Counted from the stretch's first letter, positions 7,994-51,568 are shown. The stretch: DNA of 64,000 nucleotides from an uncultured Roseobacter sp. (GCF_947499265.1 NZ_CANMNK010000005.1:180173-244172); one strand, 5' to 3'. Notes: generated from the sequence alone by a model not told the origin. A program made the numbers and translations.

Positions 7994-8494
7994 TTACGCC
8001 GAATTGCTGAGACGTTCTTCCAGCACCTCAAAGGGCACGCCGGGTTCATCCTTTGCGCCGCGGATGACCAAGGAGGTCTTGACGCTTTCGACATTGGGTG
8101 TGGTCAGCAAGTCGCCCGTCAAAAACCGCTGAAACGTCGAAAGATCCGGTGCTGCGCATTTGAGGATGAAATCCACCTCTCCGTTCAGCATATGACACTC
8201 GCGCACCAGCGGCCAGGCGCGGCATCGGTCCTCAAATGCCGTGAGATCGGATTCGGCCTGGCTCGCAAGGCCAACCATCGCGAACACCTGCACTTCGAAC
8301 CCCAACTCGCGGGCATCTACATCCGCATGGTAGCCTTTGATATACCCGGCCTCTTCCAGCGAGCGCACGCGGCGCAAACAGGGCGGTGCAGAGATGCCAA
8401 CACGATTGGCCAATTCCACATTGGTCATACGTCCGTCGGCCTGAAGTTCCGCAAGGATTTTTCGGTCAATCGGATCTAGTCGTGTTCCAGCCAT
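7994..8494 (-). CDS. Lrp/AsnC-family transcriptional regulator
   Basis: This 166-aa protein has the Lrp layout. The N-terminal winged helix is LDPIDRKILAELQADGRMTNVELANRVGISAPPCLRRVRSLEEAGYIKGY, followed by a RAM ligand-binding domain (EVQVFAMVGL ... VRECHMLNGEVDFILKCAA). The ATG at 8494 with upstream GGGGGTG is preferred over the 13-residue longer track start. It is divergent from trxB. A 10-bp palindrome and two 15-bp direct repeats 21 bases apart lie just upstream and are likely its own operator. The amino-acid effector cannot be read from the sequence. Confidence 0.9.
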   Translation of the reverse strand: MAGTRLDPIDRKILAELQADGRMTNVELANRVGISAPPCLRRVRSLEEAGYIKGYHADVDARELGFEVQVFAMVGLASQAESDLTAFEDRCRAWPLVRECHMLNGEVDFILKCAAPDLSTFQRFLTGDLLTTPNVESVKTSLVIRGAKDEPGVPFEVLEERLSNSA

Positions 8495-8515
8495 TTCACC
8501 CCCAATATTTGCGGT

Positions 8516-8574
8516 TGTTATAACACCGCCCAAGCTATGCGCAATATTCTTTCGCTCCAGCGCAAGATTCTTTC
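8516..8574. promoter_or_regulatory. Probable Lrp-type operator array
   Basis: TGTTATAACA is a perfect palindrome at 8516-8525. Two copies of GCGCAAKATTCTTTC follow at 8539-8553 and 8560-8574, identical at 14 of 15 positions and spaced exactly 21 bases, which is two helical turns. This phased arrangement just upstream of an Lrp gene suggests an autoregulatory site. It could also influence trxB. Confidence 0.55.
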
Positions 8575-8693
8575 CTCAACTCCCGAAACATGCAAGGCCG
8601 GGTTGCAGCCAACGCCTGCACGCGGGGGGTTTAAGCTTGGCCCACCCCACTATATATCCGTTCTCGCTGCTATGATATTCTTTGGGGGTCCTT

Positions 8694-9695
8694 ATGGCCG
8701 AGACAAGACAAACACGCGTCCTCATCATCGGATCAGGACCGGCAGGCTATACCGCCGGCGTCTATGCAAGCCGGGCCATGCTGAACCCCATTCTTGTGCA
8801 AGGGATCGAGCCGGGCGGTCAGTTGACAACCACCACGGAAGTGGAGAACTGGCCCGGTGACACCGAAGTGCAGGGCCCGGACCTGATGGTGCGCATGCAG
8901 GGGCACGCCAAGGCCATGGGCACCGAGATCATTGGTGACATCATTACCGATCTGAACCTGGATCAACGCCCCTTCGTTGCCAAGGGCGACAGCGGCACAA
9001 CCTATATTGCCGATGCGGTCATTCTGGCGACCGGCGCGCGGGCCAAATGGCTAGGATTGCCCAGCGAAGAGAAATTCAAAGGCTTCGGCGTGTCGGCCTG
9101 CGCCACCTGCGATGGGTTCTTTTATCGTGGACAGGAAATCGCGGTGATCGGCGGCGGCAATACCGCGGTGGAAGAAGCGCTGTTTCTGACCAACTTTGCC
9201 TCCAAGGTCACGCTGGTTCACCGCCGCGACGAGTTGCGCGCGGAAAAAATCCTGATCGACCGGTTGATGAAAAACCCCAAGATCGAACCCCTGTGGTTTC
9301 ACGAGTTGGACGAGGTTGTCGGTACAGAAAGCCCGCTGGGCGTGGAAGGCATCCGCGTCAAACACACCAAGACCGGCGAGATCACCGAAATTGCGGCCAA
9401 GGGGGTCTTTGTGGCCATCGGGCACGCGCCCGCAAACGAATTGGTCAAAGACGTGCTGGACACTCACATGGGCGGCTATGTCGTCACGAAACCCGACAGC
9501 ACAGAAACCTCGATCCCTGGCGTTTTTGCAGCGGGTGACCTGACTGACCACAAATACCGTCAGGCGGTGACGTCTGCGGGTATGGGATGCATGGCCGCGC
9601 TGGAAGCGGAGCGGTTCCTGGCCGAGCATGAGGACGCCGATACCTCCCTGCCCCTTGGCTACGGCGCAGAGGTTGCAAACAGCGCTGCCGAATAG
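8694..9695 (+). CDS. trxB: Thioredoxin-disulfide reductase
   Basis: This 333-aa flavoprotein transfers electrons from NADPH to thioredoxin. It has the N-terminal FAD dinucleotide fold (VLIIGSGPAGYTAGVYASRA), the redox-active CATC at residues 136-139, the NADPH fold IAVIGGGNTAVEEALFL with the HRRDELRA selectivity motif and the C-terminal GVFAAGDLTDHKYRQAVTSAGMGCMAALEAE. The ATG at 8694 is used; the track starts at a TTG 12 bases earlier. GGGGGTCC upstream may act as ribosome site. A strong GC hairpin follows the gene. Confidence 0.97.
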   Translation: MAETRQTRVLIIGSGPAGYTAGVYASRAMLNPILVQGIEPGGQLTTTTEVENWPGDTEVQGPDLMVRMQGHAKAMGTEIIGDIITDLNLDQRPFVAKGDSGTTYIADAVILATGARAKWLGLPSEEKFKGFGVSACATCDGFFYRGQEIAVIGGGNTAVEEALFLTNFASKVTLVHRRDELRAEKILIDRLMKNPKIEPLWFHELDEVVGTESPLGVEGIRVKHTKTGEITEIAAKGVFVAIGHAPANELVKDVLDTHMGGYVVTKPDSTETSIPGVFAAGDLTDHKYRQAVTSAGMGCMAALEAERFLAEHEDADTSLPLGYGAEVANSAAE

Positions 9696-9723
9696 CGACA
9701 CACCGAATTTGTAGCAGTCAGCA

Positions 9724-9747
9724 CGCGCCGGGCAACCTCCCGGCGCG
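9724..9747 (+). terminator. GC-rich hairpin downstream of trxB
   Basis: Perfect 9-bp stem CGCGCCGGG / CCCGGCGCG with a 6-base loop, 29 bases after the trxB stop. No T-run follows, so it may be a weak terminator or mRNA-stabilising end rather than a classical intrinsic terminator. Confidence 0.45.
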
Positions 9748-9896
9748 ATGCTAATGGTCGCGCCATGCCCACGTGAAATCCACATGGTGTTGCGTGCGCA
9801 CGGTGGGTTAAGACGCCTCTCACTTCGTGACCGGATAAGTCAGCCGGTGCCCGCCTTGGCACGCCCTGATTTCTCCATGTCCACGAGGTCTCTCCC

Positions 9897-11216
9897 ATGC
9901 CCACCAAAGCCGCCCTGGCCCATATTCCCGGCCCGCCCGCACTGCCGCTGATCGGTCACACGCTGAAAATTGCCCGTGACAGCTACGGCACGCAGCAGGA
10001 TTACATCGCGCGCTATGGATCAGTGTACAAGACCAACATGCTGGGGGTGTGGCGGGTGAACCTCTGTGGCGCGGATGCGATGGAAATGGTGCTGATGGAC
10101 AAGACCCGCATCTTTTCATCCCAAGGCGGGTGGGATGCGCTGCAACGCATCTACCCCGGCGGTTTGTTGCTGCAGGATTTTGATCACCATCGCGCCAATC
10201 GCCGGATCATGCAGGCGGCCTTTCGCGCTGCGGCGATCCGCGACTACCGGGTGCGTATGACCGGTGCGATGAAGACATTGCTGGACACCTGGCCCGATGG
10301 AGAGACGTTCTGTTTCTACACCGCCATCAAGAGCCTGACCCTCCGGTTGGGCGGCGCGGTCTTCATGGGCCTGCCGCTGGACGGGGACCTGGCGAATAAG
10401 GTGAACCGCGCCATTCAGGACGAAATCAGAGCGGCGATTGCCGTTATCCGACGCCCGGTTCCTTTCACGCCAATGTGGCGCGGTGTACGTGGACGGCGGT
10501 TCCTGCGCGAAACCTTCCGTACCCTGATCCCGGAGCGTCGGGCGCAAGGCGGCGATGATTTCTTCTCGCAGATGTGTCTGGCCACCGATGAAAACGGCCA
10601 AGGGTGGAGCGAGGATGAAATCCTCGATCAGTTCAACCTGCTGATCATGGCAGCACATGACACCACGGCCACGGCACTTTCCGTCATGATCGCAGCCCTT
10701 GGCGCCCATCCGGCGTGGCAGGACCGTCTGGCACAGGAAGTAGCAAACCTAAGCGACGGCCCGTTGGACGAAGACGCCCTGGGCAAGATGGTGCAGACCA
10801 ATCTGGTTTTCCGCGAAGCCCTGCGGCTGGTGCCGCCCGTGCCCTTTATCCCCCGCTTGGCGGTAAAGGATTTCCACTGGAAAGGGTTCGACATTCCGGC
10901 CGGTACGTCCATCACGCTGAACCCCGGTGTGACCATGCTATCGGCTGAACACTTCAGCAACCCGACCGAATTTGATCCCGAAAGGTTCGCGCCGGGGCGC
11001 AACGAAGATCAAAGCCATAAATTCGCCTGGAGCCCATTTGGCGGTGGCGCACACAAATGTATCGGCATGCATTTCTCTAGCATGCAGGTGAAGCTCTTTG
11101 TCGCGACCCTACTGCGCGACCATCGGGTGCAATTGGCGGGCAAAGCGCCAGAGTGGCAACGCATGCCGATCCCCAAACCCAAAGGCGGTCTGCCGGTGAT
11201 TCTCACCAAAGCATAG
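9897..11216 (+). CDS. Cytochrome P450
   Basis: This 439-aa protein has the complete P450 signature set: proline-rich start (IPGPPALPLIGHTL), I-helix MAAHDTTATALS, the ExxR motif in FREALRLVPP, the PERF segment FDPERFAPGR and heme loop WSPFGGGAHKCIGMHF with Cys388 as thiolate ligand. The FGGGxHxCIG form and overall look are closest to the CYP51/CYP26/CYP120-like clan rather than camphor-type bacterial P450s; this is inference. It has no signal or membrane anchor. No ferredoxin or reductase gene is adjacent, so redox partners must come from elsewhere. The substrate is unknown. No strong ribosome site precedes the ATG. Confidence 0.92.
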   Translation: MPTKAALAHIPGPPALPLIGHTLKIARDSYGTQQDYIARYGSVYKTNMLGVWRVNLCGADAMEMVLMDKTRIFSSQGGWDALQRIYPGGLLLQDFDHHRANRRIMQAAFRAAAIRDYRVRMTGAMKTLLDTWPDGETFCFYTAIKSLTLRLGGAVFMGLPLDGDLANKVNRAIQDEIRAAIAVIRRPVPFTPMWRGVRGRRFLRETFRTLIPERRAQGGDDFFSQMCLATDENGQGWSEDEILDQFNLLIMAAHDTTATALSVMIAALGAHPAWQDRLAQEVANLSDGPLDEDALGKMVQTNLVFREALRLVPPVPFIPRLAVKDFHWKGFDIPAGTSITLNPGVTMLSAEHFSNPTEFDPERFAPGRNEDQSHKFAWSPFGGGAHKCIGMHFSSMQVKLFVATLLRDHRVQLAGKAPEWQRMPIPKPKGGLPVILTKA

Positions 11217-43343: not shown

Positions 43344-43518
43344 CGCCCAAATCACAGCCTTTCATGTCGTCTTCACACAATTTGTGACTGAGAAAACGAA
43401 GAAAAAACTTGAAGCCGGGCTGCGATCAACCAAACTCTAATACTATGAGGCCATGGTCGGCTTACGGATCGGCAAGAATCAGATCCTCCACCGACCCCGA
43501 TCAGAAGGAGCGCTTATT

Positions 43519-45840
43519 GTGCCTTCATTTTCGACCACACTAGAACAGGCAATCCATTCTGCTTTGGCCCTTGCCAATGCACGACGGCATGAGTTTGCGA
43601 CACTTGAGCATCTTCTGCTGGCATTGATTGATGAGCCAGATGCGACCCGCGTGATGAAAGCCTGCAGCGTCGACATCGACGATCTGCGCGCCACGCTTGT
43701 AGAGTTTGTTGACGAGGACCTGAGCAATCTGGTCACCGACGTTGACGGCTCCGAAGCGGTGCCCACGGCGGCCTTCCAGCGCGTTATCCAACGCGCAGCT
43801 ATTCACGTGCAATCCTCCGGACGCACGGAGGTGACCGGCGCCAACGTGCTGGTTGCCATTTTCGCCGAGCGCGAGAGCAATGCGGCTTATTTCCTGCAAG
43901 AGCAGGATATGACGCGCTATGATGCGGTCAATTTCATCGCACACGGAGTGGCCAAGGATCCCGCGTTTGGGGAACAACGCCCCGTTTCAGGTGCCCCGGA
44001 GCATGAGGAAGAGGCGCAGGGCGTCACCGAAGGCGAGAAAAAGGAAAGTGCACTTGAGAAATACTGCGTGGATTTGAACGCCAAATCCCGCGAAGGCGAT
44101 ATCGACCCGCTCATCGGGCGGGATGCCGAGGTGGAGCGCTGTATTCAGGTGCTGTGCCGTCGCCGCAAAAACAACCCGCTTCTCGTGGGCGATCCCGGCG
44201 TTGGTAAGACCGCAATTGCGGAAGGGCTGGCACGCAAGATCGTCGCCGGTGAGACACCGGAGGTTTTGGAAAATACCACGATCTATTCGCTCGATATGGG
44301 CGCATTGCTGGCGGGCACACGTTACCGTGGTGATTTTGAGGAACGTCTGAAAGCTGTTGTTGCTGAGTTGGAACAACACGAAGACGCGGTGCTGTTCATC
44401 GATGAGATTCACACCGTGATTGGTGCCGGTGCAACTTCGGGTGGCGCAATGGATGCGTCAAACCTGCTGAAACCCGCTTTGGCAGGCGGAAAACTGCGGA
44501 CCATGGGGTCGACGACCTACAAAGAATTCCGTCAGCACTTTGAAAAAGATCGCGCCCTCAGCCGTCGGTTCCAGAAAATCGACGTTAATGAGCCGTCTGT
44601 CGAAGATGCGGTGAAAATCCTGCGAGGTTTGAAACCCTATTTCGAGGATCATCACTCGGTCAAATACACCGCCGATGCGATCAAATCCTCGGTGGAACTT
44701 GCGTCACGCTACATCAATGACCGGAAATTGCCGGACTCAGCAATCGATGTGATCGATGAAGCAGGTGCTGCGCAGCATCTGGTGGTGGCAGCGAAGCGAC
44801 GCAAAACCATTGGCACGAAGGAAATCGAGAATGTCGTGGCGAAGATTGCCCGCATTCCGCCGAAGAACGTCTCGAAAGACGATGCCGAAGTGCTCAAGGA
44901 CCTTGAGAACTCGCTCAAACGGGTGGTTTTTGGTCAGGACAAAGCGATCGAGGCACTGTCATCGGCCATCAAACTGGCGCGCGCAGGGCTGCGTGAACCT
45001 GAGAAGCCGATTGGCAACTACCTCTTTGCAGGCCCGACCGGCGTCGGCAAAACCGAGGTGGCAAAGCAGCTGGCCGATACCCTGGGTGTCGAACTGCTAC
45101 GGTTCGACATGTCCGAATACATGGAGAAACACGCCGTCAGCCGCCTGATCGGCGCCCCTCCGGGCTATGTTGGATTTGATCAGGGGGGCATGCTGACCGA
45201 TGGTGTGGATCAGCATCCGCACTGTGTGCTGCTGCTTGATGAGATGGAGAAGGCCCATCCGGACGTCTACAATATTCTGTTGCAGGTAATGGATCACGGC
45301 AAACTGACCGATCACAACGGGCGCACGGTGGATTTCCGCAATGTCGTTCTGATCATGACCTCGAACGCGGGTGCGGCGGAGCAAGCCAAGGAAGCCATCG
45401 GTTTTGGCCGTGACCGTCGCGAGGGCGAGGATACCGCCGCTATTGAGCGCACTTTCACGCCGGAATTCCGCAACCGGCTTGATGCTGTGATCAGCTTCTC
45501 GCCTCTGCCGAAGGAGGTTATCCTCCGCGTCGTCGAGAAGTTTGTGCTGCAGCTGGAAGCCCAGCTGATGGATCGCAACGTGACCATCGAACTGACCAAA
45601 CCGGCAGCGGAGTGGCTGGCCGATAAGGGCTACGATGCAAAAATGGGGGCACGACCGCTTGGCCGTGTCATTCAGGAGCATATCAAAAAGCCATTGGCCG
45701 AAGATTTGCTGTTCGGCAAGCTGGCTAAAGGTGGGATTGTCAAAGTGGGCGTCAAAGGTGGGGAAATCGATCTGAAGATCGAAGGCCCGGACAAACCGCG
45801 CCTTTCCGGCGATAAGCCACCTTTGCTGACGGCCGAATAA
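43519..45840 (+). CDS. clpA: ATP-dependent Clp protease ATP-binding subunit ClpA
   Basis: This 773-aa AAA+ unfoldase feeds substrates to ClpP. It has an N domain with the double Clp-N repeat ([31 protein letters not shown]), D1 Walker A GDPGVGKT and Walker B LFIDEIH, and D2 Walker A GPTGVGKT with [15 protein letters not shown]. The C-terminus has the ClpP-docking context. It starts at GTG 43519 ([10 protein letters not shown]), with AAGGAG 8 bases upstream; the track's extra 22 residues are leader. The adaptor gene clpS is not adjacent. A terminator follows. Confidence 0.97.
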
Positions 45841-45860: not shown

Positions 45861-45897
45861 AAATCCCGTTGTGCTCATTCACGGCGGGATTTTTTTT
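45861..45897 (+). terminator. Intrinsic terminator after clpA
   Basis: Stem AAATCCCG / CGGGATTT with a 16-base loop followed by an uninterrupted T-run (T8), 20 bases after the clpA stop. Confidence 0.88.
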
Positions 45898-46008: not shown

Positions 46009-47916
46009 CTACTTTTCCGTGAACTTCAGCTCGATCCGGCGATTCAGCGCGCGAGCTTCTTCGGTATCATCTATCGCAACCGGCTGATATTGCCCAAAAC
46101 CGTTTGCGGCCAGCCTGTTTGGTGGAATGCCCAAGGCGTTCACCATGTATTTCACCACGGAGAGGGCGCGTCCCTGACTGAGTTCCCAGTTATCTGAGAA
46201 TTCACCAAAGCCCGACAGGGGCAGGTTGTCCGTATGACCGTCTACGCGGATGATCCAATCAATCTCTGGCGGGATGTCATCCGCGACACTCGCAATGATC
46301 CCGGCGACCTTGGCGACTTCACGCTGCCCCTCCTCGGAAAGGTCTGCACGCCCCGGCGCAAAGAGCACCTCTGAGGAAAACACAAACCGGTCGCCTTCGA
46401 TGCGCACTCCTTCCTGTCGTCCCAACACGTCGCGCAATCTGCCAAAAAACTCGGAACGGTATTGCTCCAGATCCTTGGCTTCCTCCGCCAAACGGGCAGC
46501 CTCTTCCTGCAGCCTGATCCGCTCTTTTTCCTCGAGTGCTGCGCGACGACGTTCTTCAGCCGCAACGCGGGCCAGCGCCGTGTTGAGATCAGACCCCAGT
46601 GATTGGAGCCGGACTTGAGAGGCCGCGTCTCTTGCCACCGCATCATCCAGGAGGGATTGCAGATCTCCCAATTGCGTGCGCAACGCCGCAACCTGTTGGT
46701 TCAGAAGTTCCGTTTGGCGTTGCGCTTCGGCGCTGATCTCTTCCTCCTGCGACAATGCCCGGCGCGCCTCTGCCAGCAGGGCGGCGCGCCGCTCGGCATC
46801 GGTGCTGGTATCCTCGGCAAGCGTTTCCGCCGCCAGCTTTGCAGCAAGCGCAGTGGCGAGTTGTTCACGCAAGCGTTGTTGTTCCACTTTGAGATCTGCT
46901 TGCTGCGTTTGCAGCGCCTGCTGATCAGTTTCGGCCTGTGATTGAGCCGCTTCCAATTCGGCACGCAACTCAGCTTCCGCTGCGCGCAGAGCTTCCGCTT
47001 GCTCTGCAGCGGACGCGGCAGTGCCCTCCAACCCATCGATCCGGAGCAAGGCGGCCGCCAGTTGGCTATCGAGATCGTTCTCAACCGCCCGTGCCGCAGC
47101 AAGAAGCGTCAACATGTCTTCCGCCTCCTTTCGCTGCGCCTCCAGCGCCAGGGTCATCGCCGTCAACTCAGCATCCGCATCCGCCAACCGCGCGCGCAGG
47201 GCCTCTGCGGCGGCAGCTTCCGCCAGCCTTGCGGCCTCCTCTTCGCTCAGCGCTTGTTCTGCATCCCCCAATTCTGCCGTTAACTGATCAACCTCACCCT
47301 CTGTCGCGGCATTTCGGGCCCGTAAGTCAGCGACCAGCGCGTCCAGTGCTTCACGGCGCGCGGCAGCAAGACGGGCGGCTTCAGCCTGCGCATCGATTTC
47401 CGTGCGTGCGGATGCCAAGGCGAGGTTGAGCGCCTCCTGTTCGCTCAGCAATTCCGCCTGTGTCTGCTCCAACGCATCGCGGGTTTCTTCCAATGCGGCA
47501 ACATCTCCGAGGGCCGTATCGCGCTGCGCGATCAGCGCCGCGACCTGTGCCTCAAAACTAGTGATCTGGGTTTGCGCTTCGCTCAAGGCCGCAGCCTGGG
47601 CGTCCCGTGTGGCGGTCAGCGTCGCGATACGGGTTTCCGCGTCGGTCAGTGACGCGCTCAATGCGCCGACGCGCGCTTCAAGATCGCTGCTGGTTTGCCG
47701 CTCAAGCCCAAGGGCCTGCGCCAAAGCAGCCACTTCCCCGGCAAGCTGGTCCAATTCGGTTTCCTGTCCGGTGATCCGTTCGGTCAACACAAATTGCACC
47801 ACCATGAAGATGGTCAGCACGAACATCAGCACCAACAGCAAACCCGTCATCGCATCGACAAACCCGGGCCAGATCGAAGCCTGAAAGCGTGTGCCGGTAC
47901 GTCGCGACAGCGCCAT
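46009..47916 (-). CDS. MotB/OmpA-like stator protein with very long coiled coil
   Basis: This 635-aa protein has one N-terminal membrane helix, PGFVDAMTGLLLVLMFVLTIFMVVQFV, with an Asp placed as in MotB/ExbD/ZorB proton channels. About 440 residues of Ala/Glu/Leu/Gln-rich coiled coil follow (residues about 50-490). A C-terminal OmpA/MotB peptidoglycan-binding domain ends it (FSSEVLFAPGRADLSEEG ... VDGHTDNLPLSGFGEFSDNWELSQGRA ... NRRIELKF). It should form a proton-driven stator with the MotA-like protein, whose gene ends 2 bases before this ATG. The function is unknown; no flagellar, Tol or Zorya effector genes are adjacent. Confidence 0.85.
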   Translation of the reverse strand: MALSRRTGTRFQASIWPGFVDAMTGLLLVLMFVLTIFMVVQFVLTERITGQETELDQLAGEVAALAQALGLERQTSSDLEARVGALSASLTDAETRIATLTATRDAQAAALSEAQTQITSFEAQVAALIAQRDTALGDVAALEETRDALEQTQAELLSEQEALNLALASARTEIDAQAEAARLAAARREALDALVADLRARNAATEGEVDQLTAELGDAEQALSEEEAARLAEAAAAEALRARLADADAELTAMTLALEAQRKEAEDMLTLLAAARAVENDLDSQLAAALLRIDGLEGTAASAAEQAEALRAAEAELRAELEAAQSQAETDQQALQTQQADLKVEQQRLREQLATALAAKLAAETLAEDTSTDAERRAALLAEARRALSQEEEISAEAQRQTELLNQQVAALRTQLGDLQSLLDDAVARDAASQVRLQSLGSDLNTALARVAAEERRRAALEEKERIRLQEEAARLAEEAKDLEQYRSEFFGRLRDVLGRQEGVRIEGDRFVFSSEVLFAPGRADLSEEGQREVAKVAGIIASVADDIPPEIDWIIRVDGHTDNLPLSGFGEFSDNWELSQGRALSVVKYMVNALGIPPNRLAANGFGQYQPVAIDDTEEARALNRRIELKFTEK

Positions 47917-47918
47917 GA

Positions 47919-49103
47919 TCAGCTATCTCCGGATCTGATCTTGACGTTGGAGCGGGTTCGGCCCGACCGGAGTGCTTCGGTCAGTCTGGACAGATCCATG
48001 CGCAGCTCGGCCACGCTTTCCTGACGCCCGGCGGAGATCTCTTCGAGAATCCGCAGCATTTGCACGTCGATCGACCGCAACCGCATGCGGCTTTCCGCGT
48101 CGATCCCATCGCCGTGTCCTTGATTTTCGATGGCAGAAATCAGCCGCTCCTGCCCTGCGGCAACACGCTCAAGAGCCGCGCTTGCGGGGTCCATCCCATC
48201 CATTTTCTGGGTCATCCGTTCGATGGAAGTCGCCAAGGTGCCCAGATTTTCATTCACCTCGGTGCGGCTGACATCCGATTGCTGGAACATCAGTTGCAGT
48301 CTTTCCATCTGCTCGACCATATGCTCCACCACATTTGCCAGCGCACCTTGATCACCCGCGGCCTCATCGCCCGAGGAGAAACCCACACGGGTGATGGAAC
48401 TCAGCCATTCTTCCAATTCGCGGTAAAAACGGTTCTGACCATGCCCGGCGAACAACTCCAAAAGACCGACAATCAAGGACCCTGCGAGGCCCAACAAGGA
48501 GGATGCAAACGCCACGCCCATGCCGCCCAATTGCGCCTCAAGCCCGGTCATCAACCTGTTGAAGACTTCCACACCGCCTTCACCGTCTTGCGGCGCGAGG
48601 CTACGGATGGTGTCGACCACCGCAGGCACTGTCGTTGCCAACCCGTAGAATGTACCCAAAAGGCCCAGGAAAATCAGCATGTTGACGATGTAGCGGGTGA
48701 TTTCACGCGCTTCATCGATGCGGGTGGCAACGGAATCCAGAATGGAACGCGTCGAGGTCGCACTGACCTGCATGCGCACACCGCGCGCGCGCAGCAAGGA
48801 CGCCAGCGGTGCCAGAAGTTGAGGCGCCTGAATGCTGGCATCCTGCTGATCTGACGCAAAACGCTCGATCCACCTCACCGACCCGATCAGTTGAAAGACC
48901 TGATAGAAACAGGCCAGCACACCGATGAAAAAGACGAAGATGATAAACCCGTTCAGATAGGGATTGGCCTCGAACACCGGCAGCACCCGCGGTAGCGCCA
49001 GAAAGCCACCGAAGCCGCTCAGCGCCAGCACAATCAGCATGAGCGATATCTGCCGCACCGGTTGTGAAAAAACCGGTCTTGCCTCCTGGTCTGGCAATGC
49101 CAT
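47919..49103 (-). CDS. MotA/TolQ/ExbB-like proton-channel protein
   Basis: This 394-aa protein has two N-terminal helices (ISLMLIVLALSGFGGFLALP; YLNGFIIFVFFIGVLACFYQV). A cytoplasmic stretch follows, then the MotA/ExbB channel helices ITRYIVNMLIFLGLLGTFYGLATTVPAVVDTI and LGGMGVAFASSLLGLAGSLIVGLLELF. The C-terminal ~130 residues are a helical cytoplasmic tail. The ATG at 49103 has GGGAG upstream; the track start 24 codons earlier is not family-like. It is directly upstream of the MotB-like gene, with ChaC-like 76 bases further upstream on the same strand. It is likely the inner-membrane half of a stator. Confidence 0.83.
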   Translation of the reverse strand: MALPDQEARPVFSQPVRQISLMLIVLALSGFGGFLALPRVLPVFEANPYLNGFIIFVFFIGVLACFYQVFQLIGSVRWIERFASDQQDASIQAPQLLAPLASLLRARGVRMQVSATSTRSILDSVATRIDEAREITRYIVNMLIFLGLLGTFYGLATTVPAVVDTIRSLAPQDGEGGVEVFNRLMTGLEAQLGGMGVAFASSLLGLAGSLIVGLLELFAGHGQNRFYRELEEWLSSITRVGFSSGDEAAGDQGALANVVEHMVEQMERLQLMFQQSDVSRTEVNENLGTLATSIERMTQKMDGMDPASAALERVAAGQERLISAIENQGHGDGIDAESRMRLRSIDVQMLRILEEISAGRQESVAELRMDLSRLTEALRSGRTRSNVKIRSGDS

Positions 49104-49179: not shown

Positions 49180-49710
49180 TTATGCGGTCAGGTGCCGGAC
49201 CCGCTGGCTCAACCATTCAAGGTCAGGATCGTGCAGACCGATCTCTGTCAGATGAGCGGCGGTGTTGTAGAGGTATTCGGTGTTTGGCCCCATGCCGCCC
49301 CTGGCCCGGGCGATCACCTGAGCCTGCTCTTCCAGCGGCATCCCCCCGCAATATTGCGCATGTTCGGGGTTGATCACATAGCACAGTGCCTGAACCCGAC
49401 GGCCATCGACGAGATCGATATCCAATTCCCGTTCCAGATAGGCCGAAGAGATCAGTTCCCGCTCGCGCAGATAGCTCAGCGTCTGCGCCTCTTTTCCGGC
49501 GGCAACCGCCAGACCCACACCTTCGCAGGCATGCGCGGGTTCTTCATCCAGCGCCAGCACCAGCCCCGGGTTCTCTTCTGTACCGCGGTGATGAATGGAC
49601 CACATACAGAAAGAGCGCGCATAGCCGGGCAAGGTGCCCACGACCTGCTCGGCCACATCAAAACCGGGGTTCCACAACAGGCTGCCATAGCCGAATACCC
49701 ACATTGTCAT
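49180..49710 (-). CDS. Gamma-glutamylcyclotransferase (ChaC-like)
   Basis: This 176-aa protein has the GGCT-fold signature VFGYGSLLWNPGFDV and the catalytic-Glu segment ERELISSAYLERELDIDL. It ends with EYLYNTAAHLTEIGLHDPDLEWLSQRVRHL, as in ChaC proteins that cleave glutathione to 5-oxoproline and Cys-Gly. Glutathione turnover in the cytosol is likely. The ATG at 49710 has AAGGAG 10 bases upstream. It lies upstream of the stator pair on the same strand with no visible terminator, so read-through is possible. Confidence 0.88.
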   Translation of the reverse strand: MTMWVFGYGSLLWNPGFDVAEQVVGTLPGYARSFCMWSIHHRGTEENPGLVLALDEEPAHACEGVGLAVAAGKEAQTLSYLRERELISSAYLERELDIDLVDGRRVQALCYVINPEHAQYCGGMPLEEQAQVIARARGGMGPNTEYLYNTAAHLTEIGLHDPDLEWLSQRVRHLTA

Positions 49711-49775
49711 CGTACTGGTTCTCCTTGGCTGCATTGCGTAAACCTCAATTCAGCGGCAAGGGAAAGGGCTCTGTC

Positions 49776-50780
49776 ATGCGACGTTTCATCTGGCTGGCGG
49801 TTCTGGCGGCGGTGGGCTGGAGTATCTGGTGGACCGTGGCGACACTGGGATTGGTACGCGGCATCGACGGCTGGTTTGCCGCGCGGCAATCCGAAGGCTG
49901 GCAGGCGGAGACCTCCGCGATTGCATTTGAGGGCTATCCTTTCGACATTCTGCTCACTCTCAAAGATCCCGCCTTGGCAGACCCCGAAACCGGGGTCGCT
50001 TTTGAAGCCTCCGCCCTGACCCTGCAGGCAAAGCTCTGGGCGCCGGGCTCGATGACGCTCGGCTTGCCGGACGATCCCATTCTGCTGGCCAATCCGGAGG
50101 ATCGCTACCGCCTGCTGACGCAAAAGGGGCAGGCGCGTCTGTCGGTCAAGACCAACGCAGCACTTGAGTTGGAAGATATGATGGCCGCTGCAGATGCCTG
50201 GTTGTTGAGCAGGGATGCGGGTGATCTTCTGTCCGGTGGCGCATCAGAGGCCGCGGTACAGCAAGATGCCGAGGACCCCGCGACCTATCAGTTTGATCTG
50301 AATGTGGACGCCCTGCGCCCGGGCGAGGTGATGCGCGATACGCTGTTCATCCCCGAAGATTGGCCGGTGAATTTTGATCGGTTGACGGTGCAGGCCCGCG
50401 TGCATTTTGACCGCCCCTGGGATGTCACAGCGCTTGAAGTCTCCCGCCCGCAGCCACGCCGGATCGTCATCAACGAAGCCGAAGCAATCTGGGGCGAACT
50501 CCGATTGCGTTTTGCAGCGGGCTTGGAGGTGGACGAGGTCGGAAACGCCAGCGGGACGGTGAATGTGCAAGCGCGCAACTGGCGGGCCATGCTGACGCTG
50601 GCGGAAACCGGCGGCGTCCTCCCGTCGGCCTTGAAGCCGCAGATCGAACAGGCGCTGTCGACCTTCGCCGGGCTGTCCGGGAACCCCGAAGCCCTGGATT
50701 TGACCCTGACACTGCGCGAAGGTTTTGTCTCTCTGGGATTTTTGCCTCTGGGACAAGCCCCACGCCTGATCCTGCGCTAA
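49776..50780 (+). CDS. DUF2125 family protein
   Basis: This 334-aa protein has an N-terminal membrane/signal helix (FIWLAVLAAVGWSIWWTVATLG). The DUF2125 mature part, WQAETSAIAFEGYPFDILLTLKDPALADPETGVAFEASALTLQAKLWAPGSMTLGLPD and later KPQIEQALSTFAGLSGNPEALDLTLTLREG, suggests an AsmA-like envelope beta-structure. It is predicted to be anchored in the periplasm; its function is unknown. The ATG at 49776 is preceded by GGAAAGGG; the longer track frame is antisense to the ChaC gene. It is convergent with the extensin-like gene by a 4-base overlap. Confidence 0.83.
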   Translation: MRRFIWLAVLAAVGWSIWWTVATLGLVRGIDGWFAARQSEGWQAETSAIAFEGYPFDILLTLKDPALADPETGVAFEASALTLQAKLWAPGSMTLGLPDDPILLANPEDRYRLLTQKGQARLSVKTNAALELEDMMAAADAWLLSRDAGDLLSGGASEAAVQQDAEDPATYQFDLNVDALRPGEVMRDTLFIPEDWPVNFDRLTVQARVHFDRPWDVTALEVSRPQPRRIVINEAEAIWGELRLRFAAGLEVDEVGNASGTVNVQARNWRAMLTLAETGGVLPSALKPQIEQALSTFAGLSGNPEALDLTLTLREGFVSLGFLPLGQAPRLILR

Positions 50781-51568
50781 CGGCAATAGGATCCGCTGCG
50801 GTAGCGTGCGGTGTCGAAATGGAAATGGTCGCGGTGATGGCTGTCGGCATTCGGTCCCAGCACCGTGCCAAACGGGCCGCAGGCCCCCCGGTGCATGTCG
50901 CGCAACGCCTGACCGTAGTCCCGCGCCGTCCAGCCCGTCAAAACGGTGACCACCGATCCATCGCGCAACTGAAAACCCGAAATGTCGATCGCACGGCCCT
51001 TGCCGTGTTCGGAAATCCGCGCGCCCTTCTTGTTGTTCCGGGTCCGGCAGGCGTAGTGCGCCGCGACACGCAAGCCTTTCAGCCCGCCGCCCTTCTTGCT
51101 CAGGGCGGGTTTCGCCGCGTCGTTGATCCATGATTTCAACGCCTGCGCCGTCCCGCAATCCATAACCGCCCTTTGGCTGAGCGTCACATCGGACACCGAC
51201 CGCACTCGCACCGCTTGAGTGACGCCACACCCTATGACCCCGCTGGTCACAGGGCCCACGACCTCACCCTGGATGTCCGGATCGCCGCATATGGCGCCTT
51301 TGGCTCGCAGCTTTTGATGCTTGCGGATCACACGGCGCACCGCCCGTGTCCGTTCCTGCGGGCGCAGGGAGACGCGCGGCACATCCCCGCGCACCGTTGC
51401 CGCCATGGCCTCGGGCGAGCGCTCGGGCGCTGATATCGCACCCGAACTCTCCAGGTTCAGGGGCAACGCGCCTGTCGTGGGTCGGCTGACCGGTCGTTTT
51501 GACGTATCAGGGGCATTGGCAGCGGCACTACCGGCCGCAAGCACGCAAATGAGCAGCAGAAGCCTCAC
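50777..51568 (-). CDS. Extensin-like C-terminal domain exported protein
   Basis: This 263-aa protein has a signal peptide (RLLLLICVLAAGSAAANA), a proline/serine-rich linker and an Extensin_C domain with paired Cys. It contains CGTAQALKSWINDAA, GLRVAAHYACRTRNNKKGARISEHGKGRAIDISGFQL and the C-terminal DSHHRDHFHFDTARYRSGSYC. The SEHGKGxAIDIxGF and HxDHxH motifs recall zinc D,D-peptidase (M15/VanY) folds, so a cell-wall role in the periplasm is likely but not shown. Its ATG overlaps the tyrA stop (ATGA), making it the third gene of the hisC-tyrA operon. Confidence 0.85.
   Translation of the reverse strand: MRLLLLICVLAAGSAAANAPDTSKRPVSRPTTGALPLNLESSGAISAPERSPEAMAATVRGDVPRVSLRPQERTRAVRRVIRKHQKLRAKGAICGDPDIQGEVVGPVTSGVIGCGVTQAVRVRSVSDVTLSQRAVMDCGTAQALKSWINDAAKPALSKKGGGLKGLRVAAHYACRTRNNKKGARISEHGKGRAIDISGFQLRDGSVVTVLTGWTARDYGQALRDMHRGACGPFGTVLGPNADSHHRDHFHFDTARYRSGSYCR

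Follow-up and report, generated by a model that had tools for sequence, protein, structure and literature searches.

A wall-binding MotA/TolQ/ExbB-superfamily gene pair with a heptad-quantised rod, a candidate envelope motor of Alphaproteobacteria

The window, the whole 64,000-nucleotide stretch of Roseobacter DNA that was analysed, encodes two membrane proteins, A and B, whose architecture, residue conservation, synteny and heptad-quantised rod length are observed directly, and which are probably a PMF-driven envelope motor of the 5:2 type, anchored to the wall by a phase-keeping rod and acting in growth or division. The sequence family of the pair is known, but its function is undescribed. 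Judged by the sequence comparisons made, it appears to stand outside the flagellar, Tol, Ton and Zorya pairs. The first-pass annotation had proposed an undescribed machine, which holds for the function of the pair; however, B already belongs to NCBIfam NF006542, and a very likely orthologue of the pair has been handled as ‘motAB’ in Komagataeibacter.

Overall architecture

Both genes are on the minus strand. The A reading frame runs from 49103 to 47919 (394 residues) and B, downstream of A after a gap of 2 bases (47917-47918), from 47916 to 46009 (635 residues). These positions, checked in the window sequence, agree with the first-pass description of a MotA/ExbB-type and a MotB/OmpA-type gene. 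The features of the locus are as follows.

49180-49734, minus strand: chaC-like gene upstream of A (80 of 80 Roseobacter loci, absent in other orders)
47919-49103, minus strand: subunit A, MotA/TolQ/ExbB-superfamily channel protein, ZorA-like branch (profile, fold and hhalign matches)
48966-49058, minus strand: A helix 16-46, TM1 (AF2 helix, hydropathy peak 19-37)
48855-48962, minus strand: A helix 48-83, TM2 (AF2 helix, hydropathy peak 52-70)
48600-48761, minus strand: A helix 115-168, TM3, containing GLLGTFYGLATT and T151, T158 (AF2, hydropathy, conservation)
48375-48575, minus strand: A helix 177-243, TM4, containing GMGVAFASSLLGLAGSL and S202, G205 (AF2, hydropathy, conservation)
47979-48101, minus strand: A C-terminal cytoplasmic motif, residues 335-375, DAESRMRLRSIDVQMLRILEEISAGRQES.AELR (alignments)
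46009-47916, minus strand: subunit B, MotB/OmpA-type, NCBIfam NF006542 (PRK09039), 914 bits
47782-47877, minus strand: B single membrane helix, residues 14-45 (hydropathy peak 26-44)
47854-47856, minus strand: codon of channel Asp21 in B (Asp in 170 of 170)
47677-47781, minus strand: B membrane-proximal conserved coil, residues 46-80 (majority fraction 0.56, gap-free in 50 orthologues)
46720-47676, minus strand: B coil stretch of variable length (residues 81-399), with a majority fraction of 0.26-0.29 and gaps of 0.41-0.48
46417-46719, minus strand: B wall-proximal conserved coil, residues 400-500, LLNQQ.AALR...RYRSEFFGRLR (alignment)
46012-46404, minus strand: B OmpA-type peptidoglycan-binding domain, residues 505-635 (Pfam, AF2, conservation)

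Subunit A

Hydropathy gives A four hydrophobic helices (19-37, 52-70, about 139-162 and 197-215). T151, T158 and S202 are invariant in all 51 orthologues of the alignment, and G205 in TM4 is also invariant among aligned orthologues. Placed by motif on a single-chain sequence, T151, T158 and S202 would be the pore-lining Thr/Ser residues. The cytoplasmic tail ends in a motif with the class-wide form D..SR.HLRNLDV...RLLEE...GR....ELR.EIKLLARTIAA, which may serve as the place where a partner in the cytoplasm docks.

Against Pfam MotA_ExbB, A scores 14.9 bits, below the cut-off of 22.9, and 46 of the 51 aligned family members match this model weakly, while the PADLOC ZorA1 and ZorA3 models are matched by all 51. 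The NCBIfam ZorA model gives A 16.5 bits (cut-off 500). The best folds are those of TolQ, ExbB and ZorA (Foldseek probability 1.00; TM normalised to target mostly 0.44-0.59), with a best E value of 3e-3 and none below 0.001. In hhalign, A aligns with five ZorA proteins at a probability of 95.7 (E 1e-8, 172 columns), with three TolQ/ExbB sequences of the window genome at 13 and with its one MotA at 1.4, unequal samples that give no fair ranking of the families. This weak but consistent signal suggests that ZorA is the nearest known family to A. A PDB sequence search with A returned zero matches, and an A profile search there returned coiled-coil noise only.

Subunit B

B matches NF006542 at 914 bits (curated cut-off 388) over profile positions 1-627 of 627, with the same domain order. 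This family (NF006542-NF006546, PRK09039, ‘peptidoglycan -binding protein’), whose sister models of 342-350 positions represent the short-rod form, is a name only, with no mechanism, link to A, or account of the rod or its quantised length. No paper naming PRK09039 was found in the open-access literature, and the open-access papers on S. meliloti Rgs, R. sphaeroides CenKR and DalA do not mention the pair under the terms used.

The single membrane helix bears Asp21 within the sequence IWPGFVDAM, and this residue is Asp in 170 of the 170 B proteins recovered with a search pattern that also admitted Glu (0 cases) and that proteins lacking the motif would escape. The Asp-bearing anchor described in the first-pass annotation is therefore present and the Asp is not lost in orthologues, a possibility that had been raised against the stator view. 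That view gains further from the invariant ring Thr/Ser, the TolQ/ExbB/ZorA folds and the invariant peptidoglycan-binding residues.

Residues 45-500 of B contain zero proline and have a single global hydrophobic period of exactly 3.50 residues; its power is 4.15, whereas none of 500 composition shuffles exceeded 1.99. Since the shuffle maximum is so far below the observed power, the coil, of about 455 residues where about 440 had been estimated, stands well above chance, and chance composition is ruled out as its explanation. AF2 models helices 23-237, 253-420 and 442-498 followed by the OmpA fold (mean pLDDT 72, pTM 0.33); the interruptions at 238-252 and 421-441 are of low confidence. The C-terminal end, correctly recognised earlier as an OmpA/MotB-type wall-binding domain, matches OmpA (Pfam PF00691, 9e-17), and its AF2 model resembles MotB, MotS and OmpA structures; D563, N576 and R583 are invariant in 50 of 50 orthologues. 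Conservation covers the membrane helix, the OmpA domain and, within the coil, the first 35 or so and the last 100 or so residues, but not the mid-coil.

Length of the rod

The rod span, taken from the channel Asp to the start of the OmpA domain, is 182-770 residues in 94 non-Roseobacter proteins and 378-842 in 76 Roseobacter proteins. In the non-Roseobacters 63 of the 94 spans are exactly divisible by 7, as are 28 of 50 distinct spans (P=7e-12), the distinct spans being used to limit the effect of kinship among the sequences, which makes all P values here approximate. Among the distinct spans outside this class, ten equal 4 and seven equal 3 modulo 7, residuals that coiled-coil stutters and stammers would yield. 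The preference is weaker in the Roseobacters (25 of 76 spans, P=3e-5; 18 of 58 distinct spans, P=9e-4). In the non-Roseobacters the only other significant period between 3 and 15 is 14, the harmonic; the Roseobacter spans give a weak signal at 14 (p=0.035).

Where the span is a multiple of 7, the hydrophobic heptads of one rod end are in register with those of the other (mean -10 degrees). Nearest-neighbour spans that differ by 7 or less (n=15) differ by 7 in ten cases, by 3 or 4 in four and by 1 in one. Two controls were made: the A distances 52-151, 151-202 and 202-343 have no modulo-7 preference, and when the spans were jittered by up to 10 residues, 28 in one class was never reached in 20,000 trials.

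Length changes in the variable coil are mainly whole heptads. The quantised spans and in-register ends argue against a set of unrelated insertions, an objection raised in the first-pass annotation. A symmetric hairpin predicts steps of 14; the largest modulo-14 class holds 14 of the 28 distinct multiple-of-7 spans, and since no such class exceeds 14 of 50, a hairpin that lengthens both arms together is unsupported. A continuous rod is therefore favoured over both. Because local packing imposes heptad insertions and deletions in any coiled coil, the quantisation shows a continuous coil but is no proof that phase has a mechanical use. Long rods are also seen outside the Roseobacters, as in a B protein of 850 residues at 8168-10720 of locus L141 (genome G362).

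Gene neighbourhood

A gene for a suhB-type inositol monophosphatase lies upstream of A on the same strand in 38 of 40 non-Roseobacter loci, giving the order suhB-A-B, with an efp-type gene beyond it in 33 of the 40. Both labels were assigned from translations; the monophosphatase label is confirmed by the annotated S. meliloti locus in CP090106, where the order is thiamine phosphate synthase, sel1, inositol monophosphatase, A, B, ABC transporter and rpmE. The chaC-like neighbour reported earlier is constant within the Roseobacters, but suhB takes its place elsewhere, and the chaC-like gene is probably not part of the machine. Since the upstream gene changes, the A-B pair is the only constant unit. 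The loci examined have no flagellar gene and no TolA, TolB or Pal-like partner among the neighbours of the pair, in line with the first-pass annotation, which had noted that no flagellar, Tol or Zorya effector gene is adjacent.

Two further neighbours are conserved in the Roseobacters, an extensin-like C-terminal protein (window 50777-51568, minus strand; 62 of 80 loci) and a DUF2125 protein (49386-50780, plus strand; 78 of 80). On the other side, an intrinsic-terminator-like sequence recognised by eye, AATCCCG...CGGCGGGATTTTTTTT (45861-45897), lies between B and a convergent clpA-type gene (43453-45840, plus strand).

Distribution

With the Roseobacter A profile, A is found in 265 of 387 sampled Alphaproteobacteria, nearly always in a single copy. 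It is missing from about one third of them, and the family is not universal. The ZorA1 model, run over 299 Pseudomonadota, gave 15 carriers outside the Alphaproteobacteria; on 14 of these the A profile found the family in two, G443 and G496. In these genomes, placed outside the class, the pair (loci L185 and L186, G496 and G443) scores 400.9 and 324.6 bits and has no suhB-type neighbour, so that either transfer took place or the genomes are misplaced. The PRK09039.1-2 model has 0 matches at E<=1e-30 in 14 control genomes, including Caulobacter vibrioides, and no A match was found among 50,697 phage records. Inheritance of the pair looks vertical.

Two database records appear to be at odds with their titles. 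JAHVJD010000004.1 (L038), titled as the actinobacterium Nocardioides marinus, carries a Roseobacter-type pair with an A 70% identical to that of the window, and is probably mislabelled or contaminated. The presence of purE, rpmE and the pair in CP090106.1 (L254), a Sinorhizobium meliloti record of 3.7 Mb with the title pSymB, suggests a chromosome mislabelled as a plasmid.

The Komagataeibacter hansenii genes

K. hansenii, which has no flagellum, has a ‘motA’ product of 348 residues with four TM helices and a ‘motB’ product of 321 residues with one TM helix and an OmpA domain (PMC6570709, PMC6315621). The reported BLAST hits of the B protein, 46-48% identity over 95-99%, are to Rhizobium, Rhodospirillum and Magnetospirillum proteins. 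Judged by its published sizes, topology and BLAST matches, this ‘motAB’ is very likely the short-rod orthologue of the pair, although the K. hansenii papers treat ‘motA’ and ‘motB’ as motility genes. Jacek et al. found that their overexpression in K. hansenii gives elongated or chained cells and a wider colony spread, with E. coli shape unchanged, and that GFP fusions show a polar or bipolar pattern (PMC6570709, PMC6315621). Strain ATCC 53582 stays viable, with denser cellulose, when motA, motB or both are disrupted (PMC7347698); the function is thus not essential in K. hansenii.

Proposed mechanism

The pair has three features of the MotA/TolQ/ExbB-MotB/TolR/ExbD 5:2 superfamily: an acidic residue in the B helix, putative pore-lining Thr/Ser in A, and the A-subunit fold, the last with a weak E value and a sub-cut-off Pfam score. 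In the favoured reading, five A subunits would surround two B membrane helices, and protons would pass Asp21 of B and the Thr/Ser ring of A, moving A relative to B, possibly by rotation. Through a continuous and presumably two-stranded coiled coil, whose length would be free while its rotational phase is kept, the OmpA domains would anchor the B dimer to peptidoglycan. The conserved end of the A cytoplasmic tail may hand motion or a signal to a partner at the inner face that is encoded elsewhere. The device would be a housekeeping part of the alphaproteobacterial envelope, most likely with a role in cell-wall growth or in division, and in many cases located at the poles.

If straight, the rods of the family would be 27-126 nm long, which for most lengths misfits a straight rod crossing the periplasm and counts against the favoured reading; for the window protein, the 60 nm or so given in the first-pass annotation should be 66 nm (440 x 0.15 nm). 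A more specific proposal, that the pair is a housekeeping PMF motor beside Tol and Ton and sister to the Zorya motor, in which a phase-locked coiled-coil shaft of free length and selected register would carry torque or strain to the wall, is put forward tentatively, as somewhat less likely than not.

Comparison with known systems and alternative functions

An ordinary flagellar or Tol pair, for which the first-pass annotation had asked for profile searches, was rejected: the window genome has a separate MotA (PF01618 57 bits, C1:285671), TolQ and two ExbB-type proteins, and A aligns poorly with the one MotA and the three TolQ/ExbB sequences compared. Neither gene is thus of the ordinary flagellar or Tol kind, even though B does fall in a named family.

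The pair shares with TolQR and ExbBD the A-subunit fold, to which the best Foldseek matches belong, and the Thr of the TM3 GLLGT motif. However, sequence similarity of A to TolQ/ExbB is barely detectable, and the pair differs by the four TM helices and conserved cytoplasmic tail of A and by the OmpA domain and long rod of B. An unlikely alternative is a Tol-like force transducer, a PMF-driven complex with B itself as the transducer, which would draw the wall and the membrane together where the cell divides. The elongated and chained cells resemble those of E. coli overexpressing tolQ/tolR (PMC6570709), and such a role would be an additional one, since the tolQ of the window genome sits in its own tol cluster elsewhere. 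Yet the operon lacks a TolA, TolB or Pal-like partner, the B domain points by its sequence to binding of the wall and not of an outer-membrane protein, and a rod of unconstrained length gauges no fixed distance between inner and outer membrane.

It is improbable that the pair has lost motor function and acts passively, as a tether to the wall or a sensor of the envelope. Unconstrained rod length would suit a tether or whip, and disruption is viable in K. hansenii, but a tether needs neither the invariant channel Asp nor the invariant pore Thr/Ser found in 51-170 sequences. The kept heptad phase also speaks against it, though packing alone might demand that.

Zorya ZorAB appears to be the closest in sequence on the A side, and its B subunit likewise has an Asp-bearing helix and a peptidoglycan-binding domain; the W...VD.M..LL of the B helix resembles the ZorB helix. 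The match of every aligned A member to the ZorA1 and ZorA3 models would also fit a Zorya-like anti-phage motor, in which B would sense phage damage to the wall and A would set off a nuclease whose gene lies elsewhere. The long element, however, is the cytoplasmic tail of ZorA in Zorya (PMC11890865) and the periplasmic rod of B in the pair. The A tail is about 150 of 394 residues while the compared ZorA proteins have 590-862, and the B family has 327-991 residues against 219-243 in the compared ZorB proteins. The accessory proteins of three Zorya loci match no ORF in 121 loci, so that no ZorC, ZorD or ZorE-like gene is found there, PADLOC reports zero Zorya genes among the window's neighbours, and the A profile fails to match true ZorA loci. 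Single copy, class-wide fixed synteny and absence from the phage records are unlike a mobile defence system, and the anti-phage reading is very unlikely.

A second flagellar stator, which would share with MotAB/PomAB the four-TM A and a B with one TM helix and an OmpA-type domain and would agree with the MotA/MotB labels that several genomes and the Komagataeibacter papers give, is scarcely credible, since A has no detectable similarity to the separate MotA of its own genome and the flagellum-less K. hansenii (PMC6570709) refutes it if orthology holds.

Biological significance

The probable envelope motor bears on several lines of work. The K. hansenii comparison suggests that the ‘motility gene’ work in cellulose-making Komagataeibacter was done on this A-B machine. 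If the pair is a housekeeping motor, it would provide a relative for the Zorya defence motor and bear on the origin of the latter. Because its rod uncouples length (182-842 residues) from phase, it would also allow a direct test of how important the register between motor and wall is. With about two thirds of the sampled Alphaproteobacteria carrying a single-copy pair, usually in a fixed place, the pair would be a core motor and a missing part of envelope biology.
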